Below, piece by piece: positions 12,855 through 25,630 of a DNA stretch of 64,000 nucleotides. Each line of letters starts with the position of its first letter. Positions within the stretch are counted from its first letter, which is position 1. Under the pieces are notes generated by a model that saw nothing but the letters and a program-made list of their open reading frames with translations, was not told where the DNA came from and did no database searches. Source of the stretch: Calothrix sp. PCC 7716 (GTDB taxonomy: Bacteria > Cyanobacteriota > Cyanobacteriia > Cyanobacteriales > Nostocaceae); assembly GCF_019977735.1 (NCBI RefSeq), contig NZ_AP025018.1:10606580-10670579 (forward strand), written 5' to 3'. A program made the translations under genes and the position numbers.

Positions 12855-13298
12855 TTAAGCATTGCTTATTACTGGTGTCTTAGATGACCCAGAATTAAAT
12901 AAGATTTTGCCTTCGTCAGGATATAAAGTCTGGGTGAAAAAATGTTGAGCGCGATTGTGTTTATCAGCAATAATCACTTTTGCTTCGTGTCCAGTACGAA
13001 ATACCTCAGCGCGATCGCGTTCTTCATATGCAGCAATAATAACAAAATCTCCAGGCTCGCACAAATGAGCGGCTGCACCGTTAAGACAAATGACACCACT
13101 TCCAGGCTCTCCTGGTAACACGTAGGTTGATAAGCGGTTACCATTGCTAACATTCCAAATTTCTACTTCCTGCAAAGGCAGAATTCCCACTTTATCAATC
13201 AAGTCAGTGTCAATGGTAACGCTGCCTACATAATTGACATTTGCATTTGTTACACATACTCGATGTAACTTAGCGTGCATTAATCTAATTTTAGCCAT
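12855..13298 (-). CDS. panD: Aspartate 1-decarboxylase
   Basis: A 147-residue pyruvoyl enzyme that converts L-aspartate to beta-alanine. The self-cleavage site is visible as YVGSVTID (Gly25-Ser26, where Ser26 becomes the pyruvoyl group), and the family signature GSGVICLNGAAAHL is present. It is the last gene of a minus-strand operon, 17 bp after the A-PCP-GNAT gene at 13316. PanD normally feeds pantothenate synthesis. Here the neighbour is an enzyme predicted to activate beta-alanine, so this copy probably supplies that substrate. It carries a C-terminal extension of about 20 residues relative to short PanD proteins. Confidence 0.93.
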   Translation of the reverse strand: MAKIRLMHAKLHRVCVTNANVNYVGSVTIDTDLIDKVGILPLQEVEIWNVSNGNRLSTYVLPGEPGSGVICLNGAAAHLCEPGDFVIIAAYEERDRAEVFRTGHEAKVIIADKHNRAQHFFTQTLYPDEGKILFNSGSSKTPVISNA

Positions 13299-13315
13299 TA
13301 TTTTTTTCCTTTATA

Positions 13316-15778
13316 TCAATGGAATGATTGTTTTTCAAGCAATTTTTCAAACAGTACAGCTTCTTTATGAGGAGCAGGAACATTAGAAAAAACGTGCTTG
13401 TTCTCAAATTCAAAAGACTTGTACTGCACAGCGTATCTTTGTTGATATTCTAACTCTTGAGCAATATAGGCCGTAACCGAATGTGTACAAGTTGTCACAG
13501 CACGCTTGTAATTTAAGCTCATTGCTACTTCAAGTGTTTTCTTTTCCAAAGCTAAGAGAATAGCAGTACCGTCTACAGAGTCAGATGTACCTGACATCAA
13601 AATATGAATAATCTCCCCTATTTTTAGCTCTTTTATACTTTTGATATACATTTGATCTAGAGAATCCAATAGCGCAAAAATTGGATTCAAAAACTCAGGT
13701 ATCTCAAATTTTTCCCCTAGGGAGCTTGCAAAATCTTCACTCAAACAAAATCCAATCACATTTCCGGAAGACCGATTTAACGCAATGAATGATAAATTCT
13801 CAGAGAGGCAGCTTCTGCAAATTTTTGATGAAAATATATTGAACTCTTCTTTTTGAAGACCCAAGCTGATTCCCAAGGGTTCTCTTGAGGTAAAGGATTC
13901 GCTGACTAATGCCACAGTTTGTTCCAAATATTGCTCCTCGAACGGAATAATTTCAATATCGTCCAAGTGTAATTCAAGTGCTGTACAAGGCTTAATCTGT
14001 TTGTCAAAGTCGAAAAACTTTGCTAATGATGCGAGCTTTGGCTCATTTATAAAGTCGGAAAGGGGAATGCGTATTCCAAATTCCTGCTTCAGTTTTTCTA
14101 GGAAAGACACAACAGATAAAGATTCTCCACCTAAGTTAAAGAAATCATCGTCTCTGCCAATAGGAGAAACAAGAAACATCTGCTGCCAAATTTTTGCTAG
14201 TAATTTCTCTGTTTCGGTTTGAGGCAGATTTTGTGAATCGATGACTCTGAACCTCCACCCAATCATACCAGATAAAGCTTGGCGATCAACTTTACCGCTG
14301 GGAGTCAGGGGCAGTTTATCTATAGCAATAAATTTCACTGGAATCATGTAATTAGGCAGTTTAGAGAGGGCATACTGCTTCATCGCATCTATATTAATTG
14401 TAGAAGGAACAACAAATGCTACTAGCTGCTTTGTTTCCGGCGCCTCCTTGTTTTCTTGAACAATGACAGTGACATTCGAGATTTCTGGGTGGAACTGTGC
14501 CAATACTTTTTCAATTTCCTCCAGTTCTACTCTAAATCCGCGAATTTTAACCTGATTATCAGTTCGACCAATATAATACAGCACGCCATTGTTATTTCTT
14601 GTAACTAAATCTCCTGTTTTAAAGAGAAGACCTTTGCCAGAAAGCGGGTTGGGGACGAATTTCACCTTAGTTTCTTGAGGCTTTTTGTGGTATCCACGTG
14701 CTAGTACAACACCACCTATCCACAGTTCGCCTACCTCGCCTGGGCTAACTGGCTGCAAATTTTTATCCAAGATATGAATCTCGGCATTGGGAATGGGTTT
14801 ACCAATCGGCACGTCGGATTCTAGGTTTTCTACATTAGAAGCAAACTCCGCCCAAGTAACATCACCTGCTACTTCTGTACTTCCATAGAGATTTAACAAA
14901 ATTCCTTTCGGCACGCTTGCTCTGAATTTCTGCAACAAATTCTGCGTCAAGCGTTCTCCGCTTACCGTCCAAATTTTGAGGGCAGGGAGAGTTTTTCCCA
15001 AATTTGAGTCAGTGTTAAGCAGCGTAATCAGCAAGGATGGCACAAGGATAATGCGAGTAACTTCGGTTTCGTGAAGGAATCCAATTATTTCTTGAGGATT
15101 GACGTATTTAGAATGAGGAAGAATAACAACCTTTACTCCTTTAAGTAATGCCCCAAAAATCTCCCAAACCGAGTCTACAAAGTTGAGGGTGGTTTTTTGG
15201 CAGCACACCTCGTTTTCGCTAAAAGGGTACTGATTCCACATCCAAATGCAGCGATTCACAGTAGCTTTGTGAGTTCCACAAACGCCTTTGGGAGTGCCAG
15301 TGCTGCCAGAAGTATACAAAATATACATCAAGGCATCCGAGGTAATGGCAATATCTGGATTATGGCTTTCTTGCTTCGATAAAAAGTCTTCGTCCAGCAG
15401 GAGAATCTTTCCGTCAAAAGGGGGAAGGGTATTTAGAAGTGACTTTTGTGTGATCAAGACTCTACACCCAGAATCTTCAATAATGTATTGCTTTCTAGTT
15501 TCTGGGAAGTCTGGAGCTACAGGAACGTAAGCACCACCTGCTTTTAATATTCCCAGAATGCCAATCACTGCTTCTGGTGAGCGTTCTAAGTAGATAGCTA
15601 CTGGAGTTTCTAGCTCGACTCCAAGGGTTTGTAATGCGCTTGCAAGCTGGTTCGCTCGTGAGTTCACCGTCAAGTAAGTGAGCTTTGTGTTCTCCGTTAC
15701 AAGAGCGATTTTTTCTGGGGTTTTAAAAGCCTGTTCTTGGAAGAGATGGTGAATACACTGGTTTAATAAATCGTCCAT
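13316..15778 (-). CDS. Ebony-like A-PCP-GNAT enzyme, predicted beta-alanyl amine synthase
   Basis: An 820-residue single-module NRPS-like protein. Residues 1-500 are an adenylation domain (YTSGSTGTPKG at 154, NLYGSTE at 296, FKTGDL at 386, GRTDNQVKIRGFR at 404, PSGK with Lys496). Residues 515-590 are a carrier domain (NLGGES, phosphopantetheine on Ser553). Residues 605-820 resemble GNAT arylalkylamine acyltransferases (ESFTSREPL near 626). This is the order in insect Ebony, which loads beta-alanine and passes it to a biogenic amine. Aligning by eye to the PheA pocket gives V201 D202 W205 I244 T271 S273 L297 G305 D306 K496, close to the published beta-alanine code VDWVISLADK. No condensation or thioesterase domain is present. 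The operon is MATE exporter, this gene, panD. Confidence 0.85.
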   Translation of the reverse strand: MDDLLNQCIHHLFQEQAFKTPEKIALVTENTKLTYLTVNSRANQLASALQTLGVELETPVAIYLERSPEAVIGILGILKAGGAYVPVAPDFPETRKQYIIEDSGCRVLITQKSLLNTLPPFDGKILLLDEDFLSKQESHNPDIAITSDALMYILYTSGSTGTPKGVCGTHKATVNRCIWMWNQYPFSENEVCCQKTTLNFVDSVWEIFGALLKGVKVVILPHSKYVNPQEIIGFLHETEVTRIILVPSLLITLLNTDSNLGKTLPALKIWTVSGERLTQNLLQKFRASVPKGILLNLYGSTEVAGDVTWAEFASNVENLESDVPIGKPIPNAEIHILDKNLQPVSPGEVGELWIGGVVLARGYHKKPQETKVKFVPNPLSGKGLLFKTGDLVTRNNNGVLYYIGRTDNQVKIRGFRVELEEIEKVLAQFHPEISNVTVIVQENKEAPETKQLVAFVVPSTINIDAMKQYALSKLPNYMIPVKFIAIDKLPLTPSGKVDRQALSGMIGWRFRVIDSQNLPQTETEKLLAKIWQQMFLVSPIGRDDDFFNLGGESLSVVSFLEKLKQEFGIRIPLSDFINEPKLASLAKFFDFDKQIKPCTALELHLDDIEIIPFEEQYLEQTVALVSESFTSREPLGISLGLQKEEFNIFSSKICRSCLSENLSFIALNRSSGNVIGFCLSEDFASSLGEKFEIPEFLNPIFALLDSLDQMYIKSIKELKIGEIIHILMSGTSDSVDGTAILLALEKKTLEVAMSLNYKRAVTTCTHSVTAYIAQELEYQQRYAVQYKSFEFENKHVFSNVPAPHKEAVLFEKLLEKQSFH

Positions 15779-15827
15779 TTTTGCTAATCTAATGTCATTA
15801 ATTCTCTTAAATTAAATAGAGATTGCT

Positions 15828-17201
15828 CTAAACTTTCACAGTAGTTTTGCCATAAAAACGCCAGGTTAAGTTTATGGCAGCTGATGCAAGTCCTAGAACT
15901 AAGCCAAACCATAGACCAATGCTACCCCAATGTAAATAAATTCCCAAAAAATAACCACTTCCCAACCCGATTAACCAGTAGGAAAACAGGCTAATTAGTA
16001 GGGGAATGCGAGTATCTTTTAATCCCCGCAATGCTCCACCTGCAATAACTTGCATTCCGTCGCATATCTGGTAAACGGCGGTTAAACTCAATAATGTGAT
16101 AGCGAGTTGTACAACTTCTACGTTATCTGGATTCTTAGTATCTAAATAAATTCCTGCAATAAAGTCAGGAAATATCCAGAAAATCAAAGCTACGATATTT
16201 ACAAATATTACCCCTAATCCTATCCCCACGAACCCCGCTCGTCTCACCCCTTTTGGATCGTTCTCCCCCAACTTCTGTCCTACGCGCATCGTGGTTGCGT
16301 AGGAAATGCCCAAAGGAACCATGAAGACAATTCCTGCGGTCTGTATCGCAATTTGATGAGCGGCAAGTGGAACAGTACCTAAGTAACCCATAAGATAAGC
16401 TATAAAAGTATTTAGACTGATTTCCATAGCAAATACAAGAGCTGTGGGTAAACCAACTTTAATAATTTCACTAAAAGCTAGAAAATCAAAGTGATACCAA
16501 TTACTAAATAATTGATAAGTTCTAAGTTCTTTATCTAAGCTAACGAAACTCATTCCGGCTATGAATTGAGACCAAAGCGTCAGGGTACTTGCCCAACCTA
16601 TCCCTGCTAAACCAAGGGCGGGTAAACCCAACTTGCCAAACATTAGGATGTAGTTGGCAATGACATTAACAACTATCCCATTTACCATAATTATCATGAT
16701 TATTTGGGGACGGTTGAGGGCAGACACAAGGTTTTTTAGAACAGAAAAACCAATTAAAGCAGGAAAACCCCAGACAATTGCTTGTAGATAAGACTGAGTG
16801 AGGAATACAGTGCTTTCTTCTTGCCCCAAATGCAGCAAAATGGGAGCCATATTCCATAGCAGGAGCATGATGGGAATTGATAACAGAACAGTTAACCAAA
16901 GTCCTTGATTGGCTATATTACGGATGCGTTGGAGTTGACCTGCACCCAAAGCAATCGCGGTGAGAACACCAACTGCTGAAACCATACCTGAACTCGTCCA
17001 AAGGAGAGCGATATAGGTTGTAGAACCCAATGCTCCTGCTCCTAAAGTTTTACTCCCCAGTAAGCCCATCATCATCGTATCAGTGAAACTAGTGGCAATT
17101 TCAGATAACTGTGCGGCGGCTAAAGGAATTGCTAATTTTAAAAAGAATTGAGCTTCTAATAATACTTTGGATTTATCAAATGGCACCAATTTTATTTTCA
17201 T
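15828..17201 (-). CDS. MATE family efflux transporter
   Basis: A 457-residue protein with about 12 transmembrane segments and the MATE layout of two six-helix halves (early motif LAIPLAAAQLSE, mid motif GLPTALVFAMEISLNTF). MATE proteins export cationic or amphipathic small molecules using Na+ or H+ gradients. It is the first gene of the minus-strand operon with the Ebony-like enzyme (49 bp downstream) and panD, so it is the natural candidate to export the amine conjugate or the free amine. It is full length and intact. Confidence 0.92.
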   Translation of the reverse strand: MKIKLVPFDKSKVLLEAQFFLKLAIPLAAAQLSEIATSFTDTMMMGLLGSKTLGAGALGSTTYIALLWTSSGMVSAVGVLTAIALGAGQLQRIRNIANQGLWLTVLLSIPIMLLLWNMAPILLHLGQEESTVFLTQSYLQAIVWGFPALIGFSVLKNLVSALNRPQIIMIIMVNGIVVNVIANYILMFGKLGLPALGLAGIGWASTLTLWSQFIAGMSFVSLDKELRTYQLFSNWYHFDFLAFSEIIKVGLPTALVFAMEISLNTFIAYLMGYLGTVPLAAHQIAIQTAGIVFMVPLGISYATTMRVGQKLGENDPKGVRRAGFVGIGLGVIFVNIVALIFWIFPDFIAGIYLDTKNPDNVEVVQLAITLLSLTAVYQICDGMQVIAGGALRGLKDTRIPLLISLFSYWLIGLGSGYFLGIYLHWGSIGLWFGLVLGLASAAINLTWRFYGKTTVKV

Positions 17202-17799
17202 TTTAACAGTTTGCTGCTTTCCCTGCTGAAATTAATGTATTATTAAAGTTTTACTGGTGCCTAATGTACTCCAATCAAAACAAAAACTGATTGAATTGTC
17301 ATCTGCTGAGTAAATCCTAAAGTGGCAACAAAAAATTTGCGTTTTTAAAAGGCATAAAAGCACCTGATTGAATAAATTGCTATTTACAACAGTAAACTTT
17401 GCTCAAAGTTCATAACCTCAGAAAAACTGCGGATATTTAATTTACTAATATAAATTGAACCGTAAAAATACTGATAAATATAATTCACTACGCACAGGCT
17501 AATTATTTTTAATTATTTTGTACTAAAATAGTGTTCAGTAAATTATGTTTAAAAAGACAAAACACTTTAAGCCTAAACCATAGAATAAAGTAATATTACT
17601 TGAAAAAGTTGCTAGAAGTACTAATAATTACCATTCGTCTGCATACATTTGCTTTAACTGGCTTTATCATAACTGAATCAAAAAGTCACATTACTTGAAA
17701 AAGGCGCCAATATTACTAGGCTGTTAATTTAATAGTCGCCATCGAGTATGTGAACAACATAGAATGGTTAGTTAAATGTAGTAATAGTAAAAAATAATT
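17202..17799. promoter_or_regulatory. Divergent promoter region of the amine cluster
   Basis: This 598-bp AT-rich spacer separates the minus-strand MATE operon from the plus-strand decarboxylase, so both promoters must lie here. ATTACTTGAAAAAG occurs twice in the same orientation, at 17595-17608 and 17690-17703, and may be a binding site. No gene is seen. Confidence 0.4.
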
Positions 17800-19215
17800 A
17801 TGAAGACAGATGAATTTCGTAAGTATGGGCATGAACTTATCGATTGGCTTGCTGATTATCGTGAAACATTAGAAGACTATTCAGTAATGTCGGAAACACA
17901 ACCGGGCGACATTCGGAATATGCTTCCTTCTACTCCACCTAAGGATAGCGAAACTATGAATCAAGTAATAGTTGACCTAAAACGAATAATTATGCCAGGA
18001 GTTACTCATTGGAATCATCCATCTTTTTTTGCCTACTTTCCTTCTAATGCTGGATTAACTTCGGTGCTGGCAGATATAGTCAGTACAGGTTTGGGAGTTC
18101 AAGGGATGAATTGGCAAACTAGCCCTGCTGCTACTGAGTTGGAGGAGACAGTATTAGATTGGTTAAGGCAAATGGTAGGTTTACCTTCTAACTTTGTTGG
18201 CGCCCTGCAAGATACGGCTTCTACTGCTACCCTTGTGGCTTTGTTAAGTGCTAGAGAACGTTGCACTAACCACAGTCAAAATCGGGGTGGGTTACAAGCC
18301 GAAACTATGCCTCTAGTCGTTTATGCATCCCAGGAGAGTCATAGTTCGATTGAGAAAGCAGCACTACTTGCAGGCTTTGGTAGGGAAAATTTACGCTTGA
18401 TTGAAACAGATGAGAAACAAGCACTTTACCTTGATGCCCTCCAGCTTGCTATTGAAGCTGACTTAGCTGCTGGTAAGAAACCCTGTGCATTAGTTGCTGC
18501 TATCGGCACTACAAATACCACTGCTTGTGACCCGCTTCAAGGCATGGCTGAACTCGCTCAACAGTACGGACTTTGGTTGCATGTAGACGCAGCAATGGCT
18601 GGCAATGCCATGATTCTTCCGGAATGTCGTTGGATGTGGGCTGGCATAGAAGCCAGTGATTCATTACTCTTTAATCCTCACAAATGGTTGGGAGTAGCTT
18701 TCGATTGTACAGCTTATTATGTGCGGGACTCCCAACATTTAATTCGAGTCATGTCCACAAACCCAAGCTATCTTCAAACTGAAGTTGACGGTCAAATCAA
18801 GAATTTTCGAGATTGGGGAATCCAATTAGGGCGCCGATTCCGCGCTCTTAAGTTGTGGTTTTTAATTCGCGAGCAAGGAGTGTCAGGTCTGCAAAACCGT
18901 CTCCGACGAGATTTAGCTAATGCTAGGTGGTTGGCTCTTCAAATTGATGCAACACCAAATTGGGAGAGAGTAGCTCCTGTTGATTTACAAACGGTATGTG
19001 TACGACATATTCCAGATAAAAGCTGGAATCAAACTCAAATGAATGCCCATAACCTAGCTTGGATAGAAAAGATAAATAAATCAGGCAAAGCTTATTTAAC
19101 ACCATCGCTTTTGAAGGGAAAACGAATTGCACGCATATCAATAGGGGCTGAAACTACTGAGAGTGTCCATGTAGAGCTTCTTTGGAAATTAATGCAGCAA
19201 GTTACCGAAAGTTAA
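17800..19215 (+). CDS. PLP-dependent aromatic L-amino-acid decarboxylase
   Basis: A 471-residue group II decarboxylase, full length. The PLP lysine is Lys295 in FNPHKWLG, PLP-ring contacts are Asp263 in HVDAAMAG and His181 in QESHSSIEKA, and the N-terminal THWNHPSFFAYFPS segment is characteristic of aromatic amino-acid decarboxylases (DOPA/tyrosine/tryptophan type) rather than glutamate decarboxylases. It would produce an aromatic amine such as tyramine, dopamine, tryptamine or serotonin. It diverges from the MATE/Ebony-like/panD operon and converges with an aromatic amino-acid hydroxylase at 19525, so the five genes plausibly form one pathway. The exact substrate cannot be read from sequence. 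Confidence 0.9.
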   Translation: MKTDEFRKYGHELIDWLADYRETLEDYSVMSETQPGDIRNMLPSTPPKDSETMNQVIVDLKRIIMPGVTHWNHPSFFAYFPSNAGLTSVLADIVSTGLGVQGMNWQTSPAATELEETVLDWLRQMVGLPSNFVGALQDTASTATLVALLSARERCTNHSQNRGGLQAETMPLVVYASQESHSSIEKAALLAGFGRENLRLIETDEKQALYLDALQLAIEADLAAGKKPCALVAAIGTTNTTACDPLQGMAELAQQYGLWLHVDAAMAGNAMILPECRWMWAGIEASDSLLFNPHKWLGVAFDCTAYYVRDSQHLIRVMSTNPSYLQTEVDGQIKNFRDWGIQLGRRFRALKLWFLIREQGVSGLQNRLRRDLANARWLALQIDATPNWERVAPVDLQTVCVRHIPDKSWNQTQMNAHNLAWIEKINKSGKAYLTPSLLKGKRIARISIGAETTESVHVELLWKLMQQVTES

Positions 19216-19524
19216 GACGCGCGTAAGTCAGCGTCAAAACAATCTTATGTAACAAAGTGTAAAGCAAGTAAAGAACTTGTAAGTAATTAGTCTTAGGCTT
19301 TTTTACAAAAATAAACACACATTGATTTTAAGGCGCTGACTTACTCTACTTATATTTAGACTCGTCTAAACGTAAGTACCCTAAGATACTATCAATATGC
19401 TTAGTGGCGGTTGAGTTTGGATTTTTCATTGAGCGCGTATAAACTATAGTAAGAATCTTAAAGTGTCTACTTTGCTTTATGAACGAGCTAGTTTCTGCAT
19501 ATTTAGAGGATATGTAAAACTACA
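19216..19524. other. Convergent intergenic region
   Basis: A spacer between two converging genes. GTAAGTCAGCG (19223-19233) and its complement CGCTGACTTAC (19334-19344) could pair across about 100 bases. A T-run at about 19299-19304 may serve as a terminator. No gene is seen. Confidence 0.35.
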
Positions 19525-20250
19525 TTAAGCTACCATAAGCTTCGATTTATTCATCAGCCAATTTACTTGATTAATAATCTCAGATAGAAATTCAAAATTA
19601 GGAATGGCAAAAATCTCTTGCTGAAAAGTATGATCATCAATCTGCATCTGCATAATTTTTTCTATGTTAAATAAATATATTTTTGGTTTGCCACTTGTGA
19701 CGTAATTAATTTCATTGTAACTAGATAGTTGACTACTGCCATACACTCTTGGTTGGTTATTTTCATAACAAACTCCAGCCTCTACAGTATACCAGTAAAT
19801 ATTGGTAAGATATTGCTGTTCTATTTTCGTGGCTGACAGCATTTCTTTGCTTATTTGTTTTATATATTTAGAATACTGAGAATTCGTTAAAAATGGTAAA
19901 TGTCCAAAGCAGTCATGAAATATATCTGGCACTGTGTCAAAATTAAAATTTGTAGTCTGGCGTAGAGAGATATTAACTGGGAAATACCCTTCATATAAAT
20001 ATTTAAAGTATTCTTGAGTGTTTACAAAACCATTGATACTTATAATTCCCCAACCTGTTTCTGCTTTAAATTTTTTTGATAAAGCATTTAAGTCTGGAAT
20101 ATCTTGAAGTAAAGGTTTCAAAAAATCAAGCCCAAATAAAAATTCTTTACATGCTTTACCTTGAACCGAAACAACTTGCTGTTTAAACAATTTATTCCAA
20201 CTTAAATGCTCTGCTTCTGTATAAGCAGAATAATTTTGTAGAGTTCTCAT
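19525..20250 (-). CDS. Biopterin-dependent aromatic amino-acid hydroxylase
   Basis: A 241-residue catalytic domain of the phenylalanine/tyrosine/tryptophan hydroxylase family without an N-terminal regulatory domain, as usual in bacteria. The iron ligands are visible: His112 and His117 in PDIFHDCFGHLP and Glu157 in IYWYTVEAGV. It hydroxylates an aromatic amino-acid ring using O2, Fe(II) and a tetrahydropterin. The phenylalanine, tyrosine or tryptophan preference is not decidable here. Placed beside the aromatic decarboxylase, it would make the hydroxylated precursor (for example tyrosine, DOPA or 5-hydroxytryptophan). No GGCGCC site lies in the gene. Confidence 0.88.
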   Translation of the reverse strand: MRTLQNYSAYTEAEHLSWNKLFKQQVVSVQGKACKEFLFGLDFLKPLLQDIPDLNALSKKFKAETGWGIISINGFVNTQEYFKYLYEGYFPVNISLRQTTNFNFDTVPDIFHDCFGHLPFLTNSQYSKYIKQISKEMLSATKIEQQYLTNIYWYTVEAGVCYENNQPRVYGSSQLSSYNEINYVTSGKPKIYLFNIEKIMQMQIDDHTFQQEIFAIPNFEFLSEIINQVNWLMNKSKLMVA

Positions 20251-20932: not shown

Positions 20933-21730
20933 ATGGTTAAAGTTGTTACCATCAATATTTTGTTTGACATGGAGTGTTGGGAGAAGCGAAGTAAACTTCT
21001 CGTTGATGAGCTTAAAGTAATAAATGCAGATTTAATCGCATTACAAGAAATTAATATTCAAGAACAAACAGGCGATTGGTTAGCACAGCAACTAAATATG
21101 CCTTATATGTACTTAGTTCCTTTTCAAGCAGCACCATATAAAAATGGGCCTGAATATGGAATTGGTATACTGAGTCGCTATCCGTTTGTTTTGCAACAAC
21201 AGCTTGATTTAAAAAGTCAAGGGCGCCTAGCTCAATATGTACAAGTTAATATAAATAATCAACCATTGATATTTTGTAATGGACATTACTACTGGCAACC
21301 TGGTACTACTCCTGCACGAATGGAACAGTTTAAGTTACTGGTAGATTGGTTAAGTGAGTTACCTTTACTGCCTATAATTGCCGTCGGAGATTTTAATGCA
21401 ACACCCGACACACCAGAGATAGAATTTATACGTGAACACTTTATTTCAGCTTATGCAGCACATCACGGTAGTGAACCTGAATACACTTGTCCTACACCTT
21501 TGAGCAAACCGAGTAGAAGTTTAACTCGTAAAATCGGGCGCCGTGTAGTGAATATATTAGTACATCGTAAAATTGAACCGTGGCGCGGAACGCTAGACTA
21601 TATATTTATTAACCAGCGTTTACAAGTTCATAACTGTGAATTGATACTTACCAAGTCGGCGCCAGATAACGAGCAAATTTATCCATCTGACCATTTTGGC
21701 ATAGCTGCCGAACTTGAAGTTACTCTATAA
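20933..21730 (+). CDS. Endonuclease/exonuclease/phosphatase family protein
   Basis: A 265-residue EEP-superfamily metal-dependent phosphoesterase. Conserved segments are TINI near the N terminus, LIALQEIN (metal-binding Glu), GDFNATPDTPE (Asp/Asn), and SDHFGIAAEL (catalytic Asp-His) at the end. The family includes nucleases, sphingomyelinases and inositol phosphatases; substrate is unknown. No signal peptide is seen, so it is probably cytoplasmic. It is a single-gene unit and intact. Confidence 0.85.
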   Translation: MVKVVTINILFDMECWEKRSKLLVDELKVINADLIALQEINIQEQTGDWLAQQLNMPYMYLVPFQAAPYKNGPEYGIGILSRYPFVLQQQLDLKSQGRLAQYVQVNINNQPLIFCNGHYYWQPGTTPARMEQFKLLVDWLSELPLLPIIAVGDFNATPDTPEIEFIREHFISAYAAHHGSEPEYTCPTPLSKPSRSLTRKIGRRVVNILVHRKIEPWRGTLDYIFINQRLQVHNCELILTKSAPDNEQIYPSDHFGIAAELEVTL

Positions 21731-21782
21731 CTATAATAATTACTTAATAGCTATATAAATAGTAAAAACAACTAGAAACCTA

Positions 21783-21846
21783 GAAACCGGGTTTGTTCAT
21801 TAACATATTGTAATAAAACGATGATTTTGCATACAAACCCGGTTTC
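21783..21846. repeat. Inverted repeat with GAAACCGGGTTTGT arms
   Basis: GAAACCGGGTTTGT at 21783-21796 and its exact complement ACAAACCCGGTTTC at 21833-21846 flank a 36-base AT-rich loop between the EEP gene and the MIP gene. It may be a small non-autonomous element or a bidirectional terminator. Confidence 0.7.
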
Positions 21847-21873
21847 TCACTTGGATATTAAAAATATAGCAAC

Positions 21874-22467
21874 ATGAGAAACTCCACAGGCGCCTTATTA
21901 AAACCAAACGTTAAAGCTGCTTTTGCTGAATTCATAGGAACCTTTTTCCTAACACTAGCTGCACTTTTGGGTGGTACACCTTACGCAGCTGGTTTAACTC
22001 TTGCAGCATTTGTTTACGCAGTTGGAAGTATTTCAGGCGCCCATTTAAACCCAGCCGTCACTATTGGTCTACTTGTAAATCGAAGTATTACGGCTAGTAC
22101 AGGTACATTATATATTGCGGCGCAAATTCTTGGTGCATTGCTAGCAAGGTCGTTGGGTAACTTAGTCGGTGTTTTGGCGCCGTATTATTTTGCTGCAAAC
22201 AGCTTGGCAGAATTTGTTGGTTTTGGTATTTTGATGCTGACAGTTTTGGCAGTTTATGAAAAGAATGTTCCTTCTTCTGGTAGTGGTATAGCTATAGGTG
22301 CAGCCTTAACTGCTGGATTATTAATTAGTAAAGGAATATTAAATCCAGCAGTTGCAATTGCCATGAATCAAACGCTGTCACCAGCAACTTGGGCTACAGT
22401 ACTAAGTGCTATTGTGTTTACAGTACTATTCAGACTCTTTGTTCACAAACCACAAACAACAATATAA
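21874..22467 (+). CDS. MIP family channel (aquaporin/glycerol facilitator-like)
   Basis: A 197-residue six-helix membrane protein with two half-helix NPA motifs: HLNPAVT after helix 2 and ILNPAVA after helix 5. It is shorter than typical AqpZ proteins (about 230). It would conduct water or small neutral solutes across the inner membrane. Three GGCGCC sites lie in the gene, consistent with a native gene. The hairpin repeat at 22471 follows the stop codon. Confidence 0.87.
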   Translation: MRNSTGALLKPNVKAAFAEFIGTFFLTLAALLGGTPYAAGLTLAAFVYAVGSISGAHLNPAVTIGLLVNRSITASTGTLYIAAQILGALLARSLGNLVGVLAPYYFAANSLAEFVGFGILMLTVLAVYEKNVPSSGSGIAIGAALTAGLLISKGILNPAVAIAMNQTLSPATWATVLSAIVFTVLFRLFVHKPQTTI

Positions 22468-22470
22468 ACT

Positions 22471-22498
22471 CTTGTGGAACGGGCATCCTGCCCGTCCC
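22471..22498. repeat. Dispersed hairpin repeat (copy 3)
   Basis: CTTGTGGAACGGGCATCCTG then CCCGTCCC forms a hairpin around GGGCATCCTGCCC. It lies between the converging MIP and CAAD genes, where it could terminate both. Confidence 0.7.
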
Positions 22499-22518
22499 AA
22501 TCTTACAAAAATGGTAGT

Positions 22519-22911
22519 CTAGTTACTACCTAATACTTCCTTTTTAGTCGAGTCTATATTTTCTACCAGTTCCTTACGAGCAGAACTATTGAGTAAGTAG
22601 CGGTAAACAAACCACCCAGTGTAACCCATCCCTATTAACTCAAAAATTGGTTTTACTAAAGGAATGCTATTGATGGCGCCTATAACTGCCAAGCCGACAC
22701 GGAGTACTACAATGCCAACTACGAGCGCAACAAAGCTAAGGACAGGAAGTTTGTACTCTTGATAGAAGCGATTAACGTTGCTTGGTAGCTCTGCGATAAA
22801 ATTAGAAACTTGTTGAGTAATGCGTTGCACTTGGCTATCGAATTGAGAAGTTGCTTCGTTTTGAAGCTTAGTAGCATATTCTTGTTGTTGAGCTTGTTCT
22901 TGAGTTTCCAT
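22519..22911 (-). CDS. CAAD-domain membrane protein
   Basis: A 130-residue protein with a hydrophilic N-terminal coiled-coil-like region (QEQAQQQEYATKLQNE) and two closely spaced transmembrane helices near residues 55-105, separated by GAINSIPLVKPIFELIG. This is the CAAD (cyanobacterial aminoacyl-tRNA synthetase appended) domain, related to CURT1 thylakoid proteins. It is expected in the thylakoid membrane. This stand-alone form has no fused synthetase. Confidence 0.85.
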   Translation of the reverse strand: METQEQAQQQEYATKLQNEATSQFDSQVQRITQQVSNFIAELPSNVNRFYQEYKLPVLSFVALVVGIVVLRVGLAVIGAINSIPLVKPIFELIGMGYTGWFVYRYLLNSSARKELVENIDSTKKEVLGSN

Positions 22912-23700
22912 AGTTGACTCCTTTGTTCTAGTTTTTGTTCTAGTTTTTTTCTACTGTTGGTTATTCACCACCTTAGTCTTAGCACTAGCGACGGTAACTT
23001 TCATCTCTACAAATGAGACACCTTTAATGAAAGCGAGCGCGCGTGGGCAACCTTCCCAAACTGTGAAGAATTTGCAAAAGTTCCATCTTCACCAGTTCCT
23101 ACAGCCAAGTCACCCCTTCAGAATATTCGCTTCTAATTTTGAGCGTACCTGACTTGCTAAGTCGGTAGGTCAGTTATTTTAGTAGTTACATCAGTACAGC
23201 AGCACCAATAATTAAAAACAGCTAAAAAGAAACGGAACTACTTTTTTCATAGTAACTTCAATATTCAGTTATATTATCAATTTATTTAAATATATCCCCT
23301 CATATTTAAGCGAACTGATCATCAATCAATTGAATGAAACACTATCTCTCAAAAGTTAGAATACAATTTTGTGTAACATACATTGAATGCTAGAACTTAG
23401 TCACAATTATTAATATTCTTTCTTAGTACTTTAGTCCTATAAGGAGTTATCTATAATTGATATAGAATGCTAGAAACTAGTCACAATTTTATAGTTAATT
23501 ATTATAATAGTATCTAGAAAACGAGATTTTGATAAATTTCATGACCTTACATGCTCATATAAGCATAAAATTTAGCAAATATTAATAAATATTAAGGGTG
23601 TTTTATACCTGGAGATAAGGACGTTTCATTCTCTAGAAAGATGGCTCATGGGTTTTAGATATTTAATATTGTTAGTAAATAACCCTAGAGAAAATAACTA
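22912..23700. other. Long upstream region with an 80-bp-spaced direct repeat
   Basis: This 789-bp stretch has no gene. GAATGCTAGAACTTAGTCAC followed by AATT at 23385-23408 recurs at 23465-23488 with two mismatches, exactly 80 bp apart in the same orientation. It probably contains the promoter of the stress operon at 23701-25630. Confidence 0.45.
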
Positions 23701-24561
23701 ATGGCACTCCATAAAATTAGCGATTTCGACACAGACTACCATAACACTATTCAAGGTAAAGACATTAAAGGAATGGGTGTCTATAGCCGAAGCAGTGACG
23801 AGAAAATTGGCACAGTCAGTGATATCCTAGTCGATGACCAAGGACAGTTCCGTTATCTACTTGTTGATTTAGGCTTTTGGATTTTTGGTAAGAAAGTATT
23901 ACTTCCACTTGGTCGCGCTCAAGTTGATTCAATAGAAGAGCGTGTGTATACTGCGTTAACTAAAAAGCAAGCAGAAGATTTACCTGAGTTTAAAGAAGAT
24001 ACAGTATTAGACTACGACTACGAAGAACGAGTACGTGGAGTATATCGTACACCACTCGAAGCCTCGGCGCCTCTGGGTGGAGTTGGAAGTACAACCCCAA
24101 CTTACGACCGCAATACTTATAACTATAGCCAAGACGCTGATTTATACGATACCAGCGTACACGATGATACAACTATTAGACTTTATGAAGAGCGCTTAGT
24201 AGCTAACAAGCAGCGTCGTAAAGCTGGTGAAGTTGCAATTGGCAAGCATGTTGAAACAGAAACAGCACGTGTAGCAGTACCAATTGAGAAAGAGCGAGTA
24301 GTTATTGAGCGTGTCACCCCCGCAGATGTAGGTAGAGTAGTTACTGGTGATGCAACAGCATTCCGTGAAGGTGAAGTAGCACATGTAGAAATTTACGAAG
24401 AAGTTCCTGACATTCGTAAAGAAGCGGTAGTACGAGAAGAAGTTCGTGTCCGAAAAGTTGTAGACCATGAAACAGTCGAAGCAACTGAAACAATTCGTCG
24501 TGAAGAATTGGATATAGACACCGACGGTAGAACTGTCGTAAACAAAGAAGACCGCATTTAA
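23701..24561 (+). CDS. PRC-barrel and DUF2382 protein
   Basis: A 286-residue soluble protein. Residues 20-95 are a PRC-barrel (VYSRSSDEKIGTVSDILVDD then FRYLLVDLGFWIFGKKVLLP). Residues 155-280 are DUF2382 (RLYEERLVANKQRRKAGEVA, then charged repeats IEKERVVIERV). Proteins of this kind are common in desiccation- or stress-tolerant bacteria; the molecular role is unknown. It is the first of three plus-strand genes spaced 42 and 73 bp apart, probably an operon. Confidence 0.87.
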   Translation: MALHKISDFDTDYHNTIQGKDIKGMGVYSRSSDEKIGTVSDILVDDQGQFRYLLVDLGFWIFGKKVLLPLGRAQVDSIEERVYTALTKKQAEDLPEFKEDTVLDYDYEERVRGVYRTPLEASAPLGGVGSTTPTYDRNTYNYSQDADLYDTSVHDDTTIRLYEERLVANKQRRKAGEVAIGKHVETETARVAVPIEKERVVIERVTPADVGRVVTGDATAFREGEVAHVEIYEEVPDIRKEAVVREEVRVRKVVDHETVEATETIRREELDIDTDGRTVVNKEDRI

Positions 24562-24603
24562 TCAAAAAAGTTAAAAACTCTTTACATATCAAGGAGGTAA
24601 AGC

Positions 24604-25041
24604 GTGAAAATAGTTCAAAATTTCCGTCGTATTTTAGTAGCGTTCGCATTAGTGCTAGTACTAATAACTACTAGTGCATGTAGCTCAGTACAAGCAAAAG
24701 AGCCAACATCACAGCTACCAGGTGCAACATATAGCAATAATTACTCACAGCTAGAACTGGGTAATACTGCACAAGGTCAAGACTTTGGTAACTGGGTAGT
24801 ATCAACAGCAAAAGGAATCGTCTCTGATGCTTTTGTGCGTGATAACAACAAATTAGGTGTTGTAATTACACCTCAAGTTCGTCCGGCAGAAGTAAGACCA
24901 TTAGCAAAATCTTTAGTACAAGGTTTCCACAAGAACTTTCCAAATCAGGACTTGACGGTTTTAGTATACGCACCTGATAAAAAGTTGATTTTGACAGCTA
25001 AGTACGATACTCAGTCAAATCAAATCGCGTACAACTCATAA
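24604..25041 (+). CDS. Small lipoprotein of the stress operon
   Basis: A 145-residue protein starting with GTG behind a perfect AGGAGG box at 24592-24597. The signal peptide ends in a lipobox-like TSAC at about residue 26, so lipidation is predicted. The rest (VRPAEVRPLAKSLVQGFHKN, VLVYAPDKKLI) is soluble and faces the periplasm. Family not recognised. It lies between the DUF2382 gene and the gene at 25115. Confidence 0.7.
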   Translation: MKIVQNFRRILVAFALVLVLITTSACSSVQAKEPTSQLPGATYSNNYSQLELGNTAQGQDFGNWVVSTAKGIVSDAFVRDNNKLGVVITPQVRPAEVRPLAKSLVQGFHKNFPNQDLTVLVYAPDKKLILTAKYDTQSNQIAYNS

Positions 25042-25114
25042 AACGATTTTGATTGACTTCAAGCAAAACAAGAAGCTAGTTGACGAAATTTTATTTGAAT
25101 GAAGGGAGAAACAA

Positions 25115-25630
25115 ATGTCTAGCAGCGACCAATACAAACGTCAAATCATGAATGATTTGGCACAAGGAAATACAGAATCTCTTGATGATGCTCCTTCTGA
25201 CCCTTCAAGAGAGTATCAAAACTTTGACGACTTTGCACAACGTTCAACACACCAAGAACGGCGCCAGTTGTTTGGTCGCATCGACCACAACCAAGTTCCT
25301 CCAAGCCAAATGGAGCCAGAACTTAAAAAAGCAATTGAAAAGATTCAACCAAACGAAAGAGACGATGTAGCGCGTTCGTTCTTCAAGCACCTCAAAGAAA
25401 GAGGACTTGACGACCGTCATCTAGAAAAGCAATTGGGTCTTTCTACTCATAACCCCAATCGAATGACTGCTGATGATGTATCTAAACTTGCTTCGTTTAC
25501 ATACCACAATCACCCCGACATCTTCCGTGATGTAATGGCAGAACAACCTGCAATCTTCAAATTTCTTAGCAACCCTGTAGTAGGCGCCGCACTAGGAGCA
25601 ATTGCTTCTAAATGGTTTGGCAAACACTAA
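25115..25630 (+). CDS. Conserved-looking hydrophilic protein of the stress operon
   Basis: A 171-residue protein, strongly charged and polar over residues 1-135, ending in a short glycine/alanine-rich hydrophobic segment (NPVVGAALGAIASKWFGKH). I do not recognise the family. A good ribosome site (GAAGGGAG) precedes the ATG. Operon position with DUF2382 and lipoprotein genes suggests a stress or envelope role, which is inference only. Confidence 0.65.
   Translation: MSSSDQYKRQIMNDLAQGNTESLDDAPSDPSREYQNFDDFAQRSTHQERRQLFGRIDHNQVPPSQMEPELKKAIEKIQPNERDDVARSFFKHLKERGLDDRHLEKQLGLSTHNPNRMTADDVSKLASFTYHNHPDIFRDVMAEQPAIFKFLSNPVVGAALGAIASKWFGKH

Follow-up and report, generated by a model that had tools for sequence, protein, structure and literature searches.

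The 64,000-nucleotide stretch of the Calothrix sp. PCC 7716 genome that we analysed here (contig NZ_AP025018.1, positions 10,606,580 to 10,670,579; hereafter the window) carries, between its positions 12855 and 20250, five genes, one of which encodes an enzyme with the domain layout of Ebony. Beta-alanine/amine (Ebony) chemistry is familiar chiefly from the pigmentation and nerve signals of insects, and Ebony itself joins an adenylation (A) domain and a peptidyl carrier protein (PCP) to a GNAT-like C-terminal domain that stands in place of a condensation domain. Judged from gene content and sequence comparison, the locus probably joins beta-alanine to a hydroxylated aromatic amine and exports the conjugate; our leading guess for the product is N-beta-alanyl-dopamine, both the amine and the product being predicted.

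A five-gene locus around an Ebony-like enzyme

All five open reading frames named in the original prediction were found in place, and its family labels (PanD, an enzyme with AMP-binding and PP-binding domains, MATE, decarboxylase and hydroxylase) were upheld by Pfam and TIGRFAM models. Three of the genes lie on the minus strand in an operon as tight as had been claimed: a MATE exporter gene comes first (15828..17201; PF01554 (MatE), TIGR00797) and is followed after 49 bp by the gene for the Ebony-like enzyme, which resembles a nonribosomal peptide synthetase (NRPS; 13316..15778, 820 residues), and after another 17 bp by panD (12855..13298; PF02261, TIGR00223). Also as claimed, the gene for a pyridoxal phosphate (PLP)-dependent aromatic L-amino acid decarboxylase (AADC) of the type acting on 3,4-dihydroxyphenylalanine (DOPA) (17800..19215, plus strand; PF00282 (Pyridoxal_deC), PDB 7xin) is divergent from the MATE gene, with 598 bp between them. 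It is convergent with the gene for a pterin-dependent aromatic amino acid hydroxylase (19525..20250, minus strand; PF00351 (Biopterin_H)), which lies 309 bp away.

In the pathway that we propose, the pterin hydroxylase would convert tyrosine to DOPA (or phenylalanine to tyrosine) and the PLP decarboxylase would remove CO2 to give dopamine (or tyramine), while a dedicated PanD would form beta-alanine from aspartate. The A domain would then adenylate beta-alanine and load it onto the PCP, the Ebony-like GNAT domain would transfer it to the amine nitrogen, and the MATE protein (an MFS-like transporter in some relatives) would export the product.

The enzyme and panD recur with exchanged partner genes

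Full-length relatives of the enzyme were found in at least 3 of 388 genomes of the order, the window's own included, in a survey in which at most two candidates were scored per genome and the three full-length relatives led the matches listed by 900 bits. When GTDB genome contigs were scanned with two short peptide patterns, a search that reaches close relatives only, this added UBA11344 and UBA9251, both metagenome-assembled genomes (MAGs) of Microcoleaceae; the 5692-bp contig of UBA11344 bears the enzyme found on contig C324 of genome G373. Since the UBA11344 and UBA9251 enzymes are identical, these finds represent three lineages and not four. The full-length relatives are 77-78% identical to the window enzyme, and the cluster is rare, with two of the relatives being MAGs.

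The enzyme gene adjoins panD in every full-length relative found (G278, G373/UBA11344 and UBA9251). The MATE-enzyme-panD order of the window recurs in G278, where an LmbB2/SfmD-like gene and a PLP decarboxylase gene precede it and where the MATE protein, in the same place in the cluster, is 79% identical to that of the window. UBA9251 has an LmbB2/SfmD-like gene, a decarboxylase gene of the G278 type, a gene for an MFS-like transporter in the place of MATE (named by sequence likeness, without a family search), the enzyme and panD. In G373, one contig carries an MFS-like gene, the enzyme, panD and another MFS-like gene, and a different contig (L098) an LmbB2/SfmD-like gene, a decarboxylase, a standalone GNAT, a 25-residue remnant that is 96% identical to the end of the window enzyme, and panD; at 2221-3652 of L098, the standalone GNAT is followed by a GNAT fragment, this fused-enzyme tail and panD. 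That contig could reflect a genuine second locus, a strain variant or mixture, a recombination scar or an assembly artefact.

The panD gene is kept in all three relative genomes and a decarboxylase in both loci with enough flank, the third genome having one on its other contig. What could not be seen in the original prediction is that the hydroxylase and decarboxylase genes of the different clusters are not orthologous. The relatives' decarboxylase aligns only in part with that of the window (about 25% identity) and best matches a non-canonical aromatic amino acid decarboxylase (6ebn, E 1.7e-31); the clusters of G278 and UBA9251 include a relative of the LmbB2/SfmD heme tyrosine hydroxylases, whereas a search of the window genome with the G278 query gave no LmbB2/SfmD-like gene and the pterin hydroxylase stands there instead. 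The presence of two unrelated hydroxylase-decarboxylase pairs beside one enzyme argues for a hydroxylated aromatic amine, and this gene swap, in which a constant enzyme and panD are accompanied by two such pairs and by two kinds of transporter, is the strongest argument for the pathway.

The second argument comes from standalone GNAT genes that follow an LmbB2/SfmD-like and decarboxylase pair in G178, in G091, where a terpene synthase gene stands between the pair and the GNAT, and on the other contig of G373. An AADC-like gene also adjoins a GNAT relative in G094. Standalone GNATs beside hydroxylase or decarboxylase genes indicate that this GNAT superfamily goes with aromatic-amine genes; insect arylalkylamine N-acyltransferases (aaNATs) and Ebony share dopamine as a substrate. 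Among the three standalone-GNAT loci L098-L100, panD adjoins one (L098). Both L099 (1209-5470) and L100 (7237-12741) show an LmbB2/SfmD-like gene, a decarboxylase and a standalone GNAT with a divergent sulfotransferase gene next to it, L100 with a terpene synthase gene between pair and GNAT; these names have a Pfam basis for L100 and rest on sequence likeness for L099.

The A domain is predicted to be of the beta-alanine type

When the whole enzyme was searched with Pfam (E<=0.001), AMP-binding from residue 13, AMP-binding_C and PP-binding (527-588) were found and no further family. The A domain covers about residues 13-502, the carrier about 527-588 and the GNAT-like region about 600-820. The carrier motif LGGES starts at residue 549. 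This A-PCP layout, without an N-terminal condensation domain, is that of an Ebony-type synthetase.

The ten specificity positions of the A domain, placed via motif anchors and numbered in what we take to be the GrsA scheme, read VDWITSLGDK in the window enzyme and identically in L012, L013 and L052. This code agrees at 7 of 10 positions, and differs at 3, with VDWVISLADK, which we take to be the reference code for beta-alanine, no supporting paper for the string having been found. The code predicts an A domain of the beta-alanine type. Among the matches listed, all 27 further loci from the similarity search (L014-L040) read VDW..S..(D/N)K, 21 ending in ADK and 6 in ANK; as these loci were picked by their likeness to the window protein, some sharing of the code is expected. 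Since the same extraction returned other codes that we believe to be known ones, such as DFWNIGMVHK (three times), the extracted positions look sound.

In the window's own genome, of 12.4 Mb, 21 of 31 other AMP-binding places gave a readable code start, and a single one of these was of the VDW type (L142, VDWIISLANK), being also the most similar to the window's A domain (47% identity); the remaining 20 were not VDW and 23-42% identical. L142 (C1:3318562-3321620) is an extra VDW-type, probably beta-alanine-specific, A domain within an open frame of 1383 residues. More generally, cyanobacterial NRPS modules with VDW-type A domains, such as this one, are 46-50% identical to the window's domain and have almost the same code, and they mostly lie in long open frames, unlike the 820-residue window enzyme. 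L016, with an open frame of 828 residues, was considered as a second Ebony-like enzyme and rejected, as it reads by eye as a condensation-A-PCP module followed by a ketosynthase. An AADC-like gene lies 96 bp beyond the gene for an NRPS protein of G265 whose A domain has the code DVWHISLIDK (L127, 6253-11016).

The C-terminal domain is homologous to that of Ebony

Pfam named no family in the C-terminal 225 residues (13316..13993, minus strand) when run on the whole enzyme at E<=0.001. Searching the PDB with this single domain sequence (phmmer) gave the chlorovirus acetyltransferase A654L (E 1.1e-5), Ebony (6dym, 2e-5) and insect aaNAT2 (1.6e-4), and a profile of three fused domains gave Ebony first (2.5e-6), then A654L (4.8e-5) and aaNAT2 (9.1e-5), with the next match, a dopamine N-acetyltransferase-like protein, at 0.073. 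The Ebony domain scored 26.1 bits, against a maximum of 1.6 bits among 300 shuffled versions of it. Out of three standalone relatives tested against the Pfam GNAT cut-off, L098 and L100 pass and L102 shows no family. Altogether, with Ebony as best profile match and two of three standalone relatives above the cut-off, the GNAT-like character that had been proposed for this region is supported at the level of sequence.

Identity to the window domain is 22-28% for the six standalone cyanobacterial GNAT relatives and 19-22% for the Ebony domain; raw identity to L098 (28%) exceeds that to Ebony (19%). By eye, the fused enzymes and Ebony share residues that are absent from the standalone GNATs, for example the GT that follows the HxxM strand and a TT.T...T close to the terminus. 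The insect aaNAT motif DEPL, whose Glu is catalytic, corresponds to REPL in the fused enzyme and to KADL in Ebony. All 7 trees had a split with Ebony and the fused enzymes on the same side (bootstrap 87-96), one of these trees, a pre-aligned variant, being numerically identical to the first and adding nothing; the Ebony branch is very long. The approximately unbiased (AU) test did not reject a clade of the cyanobacterial domains (p 0.101), such a clade with a Sarcina protein added (p 0.103) or Ebony with insect aaNAT (p 0.098). Given these three alternatives and the long Ebony branch, homology of the domain to the GNAT-like domain of Ebony is shown at the level of sequence, and Ebony as its closest kin is favoured, not proven. 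A separate origin of the enzyme, in which a local standalone GNAT became fused to an A-PCP protein, is less favoured by the trees.

The insect-type aaNATs (4fd5) and the cyanobacterial GNATs L098-L100 and L102 have an acyltransferase domain homologous to that of the window enzyme; unlike the latter, they are free-standing, presumably acyl-CoA dependent, and without A-PCP. At least 5 of 386 genomes of the phylum had a match to the C-terminal domain (the window, G278 and three standalone), a lower bound because the GNATs of G373, G178 and G091, found otherwise, were not among the matches. A plasmid search returned one distant standalone GNAT in Sarcina, not joined to A-PCP; viral contigs scanned with the C-terminal alignment gave no relative, and the single PHROGs match of the domain (E 0.088) was disregarded.

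The cluster has its own panD paralogue

The window PanD passes TIGR00223 (136.4 bits, cut-off 106) as well as PF02261, and it has the Gly-Ser processing pair (YVGSVTID). The window's own genome and G278 each hold one housekeeping-type and one cluster-type panD. The window copy is 43% identical to the other copy of its genome and 80-87% identical to cluster-type panDs, and the two types form separate clades with support of 100/100 in a tree of 10 rows, 7 of them different. G353 and G380, of the same genus, have one panD each, of the housekeeping type, and for neither was a full-length enzyme among the matches listed. We predict that the window panD is a separate second paralogue dedicated to the cluster, where it would supply beta-alanine. 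A role of this gene in coenzyme A (CoA) synthesis was rejected on the presence of the second copy. In G361, an AADC gene is convergent with a cluster-type panD (80%) at L117 (9622-11568), and no A-PCP-GNAT enzyme was found on the 36.8-kb contig carrying it.

Hydroxylases and decarboxylases point to a catecholamine

The best PDB matches of the window hydroxylase are bacterial phenylalanine 4-hydroxylases, with clear homology over the whole length, and tyrosine hydroxylase (TH) is not its closest relative; we therefore class it as a member of the phenylalanine hydroxylase (PAH) family. Enzymes of this kind bind iron through HxxxxH and a Glu, and FHDCFGH and WYTVEAG of the window protein align with the Chromobacterium violaceum PAH at these ligands. 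The window's IDDHTFQ aligns to YQDQTYQ of human TH with Asp at the same place, where PAH 5den has Val, in an alignment from a 71-residue piece whose matches have E values of about 0.5. We take this Asp to correspond to Asp425 of rat TH, governing DOPA formation, a supporting paper not having been found. Among 8 other copies in the order, the position is Asp in one (G285), Ile in four and otherwise Tyr, Thr or His, and it is Ile in the C. violaceum enzyme. An Asp at the TH position points to DOPA, and the window hydroxylase possibly has TH-like (tyrosine 3-hydroxylase) activity. Members of the family are confined to 8 of the 388 genomes surveyed in the order, with one copy in the window genome, which also has the pterin gene PTPS, by itself no proof of tetrahydrobiopterin.

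The G278 hydroxylase has one PDB match, SfmD (E 8.2e-9), and its DHDYLI and GHKSIC align to the His and HxxxC of SfmD 6vdp, presumably the heme residues. It also carries W-x3-H, part of the RWxxxH motif of LmbB2, its Arg not being kept. According to PMC3851162, which describes this motif, LmbB2 converts tyrosine to DOPA and its family is said to occur in cyanobacteria. LmbB2/SfmD-like matches were obtained in 40 of 388 genomes of the order, and in 7 of 388 the gene lies within 2 kb of an AADC gene (G032, G074, G108, G152, G055, G104 and G121; loci L103, L123, L124, L125, L112, L126 and L104). These seven are likely DOPA/dopamine loci, with the G055 match being weak (27%, with a stop); no Ebony-like enzyme was seen near them.

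The window decarboxylase matches DOPA decarboxylase 7xin, its closest solved relative, over residues 4-469 (E 1.9e-197, 659 bits), and the next PDB match, tyrosine decarboxylase 6eei, scores 260 bits fewer (E 1.4e-118, 399 bits). We know of no tie of 7xin to beta-alanylation. Decarboxylases of the window type occur in 23 of 388 genomes of the order (E<=1e-60). At L101 (8844-12881), a decarboxylase 66% identical to the window's adjoins a MATE gene, and a Haem_oxygenas_2 (iron redox enzyme) gene stands 33 bp on, possibly a further oxygenase type paired with a window-type decarboxylase.

Other features of the locus

The divergent intergenic region between the MATE and decarboxylase genes (17202..17799) holds a 37-nt direct repeat, with copies at 17587 and 17682 (to 17718), 78% identity and a spacing of 95, which is a possible regulator site or operator. 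The right flank (20933-25630) encodes an endonuclease/phosphatase-family protein, a MIP channel, a CAAD protein and a PRC-barrel/DUF2382 protein, with no obvious link to the cluster.

Discussion

With a beta-alanine-type code, an Ebony-like domain and the recurrence of panD and a decarboxylase, the joint beta-alanylation pathway of the original prediction emerges in sharper form. Several observations weigh against it. In the window, the decarboxylase and hydroxylase genes lie outside the MATE-enzyme-panD operon and differ from those of the relatives, and with bacterial phenylalanine 4-hydroxylases as nearest solved enzymes the window hydroxylase may only make tyrosine; around the other Asp copy, in G285, no other cluster gene was found within the 17.5 kb examined. 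In UBA9251 the LmbB2/SfmD-like gene is interrupted by in-frame stops, as is the standalone GNAT gene in G178. An AlphaFold model of the C-terminal domain made from two sequences reached a pLDDT of 35. Finally, both panDs of G373 are of the cluster type, so that a housekeeping copy is not shown for this genome, which is 74% complete and may lack that gene in its assembly.

The same pathway could use an amine that is not a catechol, with a phenylalanine 4-hydroxylase leading to beta-alanyl-tyramine or the decarboxylation of tryptophan or 5-hydroxytryptophan to beta-alanyl-tryptamine or -serotonin. This is a real possibility, well short of an even chance: it agrees with the nearest solved hydroxylases and with the broad specificity that we take aromatic decarboxylases often to have, whereas the Asp of the window hydroxylase and the score of the decarboxylase, 260 bits higher with DOPA decarboxylase than with the next match, speak for a catechol. 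Flatworm Ebony-like enzymes use tryptamine according to PMC11214079, yet the relatives carry LmbB2/SfmD-like genes, and LmbB2 is the DOPA-forming enzyme of PMC3851162.

We consider it unlikely that the enzyme and panD form a beta-alanyl-amine module, acting for example on histamine or a polyamine, with the decarboxylase and hydroxylase as chance neighbours. Their separate transcription units in the window would fit this, as would the scores of A654L, which presumably acts on a polyamine: it outranks Ebony in the single-sequence search and comes a close second to it in the profile search. However, both full-context relatives carry genes for an aromatic-type hydroxylase and for a PLP decarboxylase collinear with that of the enzyme, the pterin hydroxylase is rare in the order and yet a close neighbour of the decarboxylase, and a cluster-type panD lies beside an AADC gene in G361 too. 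Less probable still is a cryptic amino-acid-activating enzyme unrelated to beta-alanine, next to a spare panD serving CoA synthesis; the three deviating code positions would allow it, but a housekeeping-type panD is also present in the window's genome and in G278, and enzyme-panD adjacency holds in every full-length relative found.

Compared with known systems, the beta-alanyl-amine pathway proposed here most resembles those of animals. Ebony of Drosophila and the NRPSs of flatworms (Schmidtea, Schistosoma) are, like the window enzyme, A-PCP proteins with a GNAT-like C-terminus and a beta-alanine-type A domain (predicted for the window enzyme), and they work with an aromatic decarboxylase, as would the window enzyme. 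Unlike Ebony, the window enzyme is bacterial and is encoded in one operon with an exporter and a PanD of its own, and its A domain is close to cyanobacterial NRPS A domains in a comparison that left out that of Ebony. Ebony itself has been known as an animal enzyme. In PMC10531068, it is grouped with animal NRPSs, a bacteria-to-animal transfer of NRPSs being possible but unclear; planarians make beta-alanyl-tryptamine with an AADC and an Ebony-like NRPS (PMC11214079), and PMC9151784 mentions Ebony in passing. No report of a bacterial Ebony-type cluster was found among the open-licence papers listed in our searches, which is weak evidence of novelty.

Tentatively, and with more doubt than confidence, cyanobacteria may possess a genuine pathway of the Ebony type, its condensing domain having a common ancestor with that of animal Ebony; catecholamine beta-alanylation would then be ancient or horizontally shared, and beta-alanyl-dopamine would be secreted. 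If so, secreted beta-alanyl-dopamine could tan or cross-link the sheath as in insect cuticle, or serve as a signal. A bacterial enzyme of Ebony layout with its own beta-alanine supply and exporter would offer a tractable system and a possible outgroup for Ebony, and the hydroxylase and decarboxylase swap between clusters provides a natural functional control. Together with the seven genomes that pair LmbB2/SfmD-like and AADC genes, the cluster hints at a broader, little-studied catecholamine chemistry of cyanobacteria.

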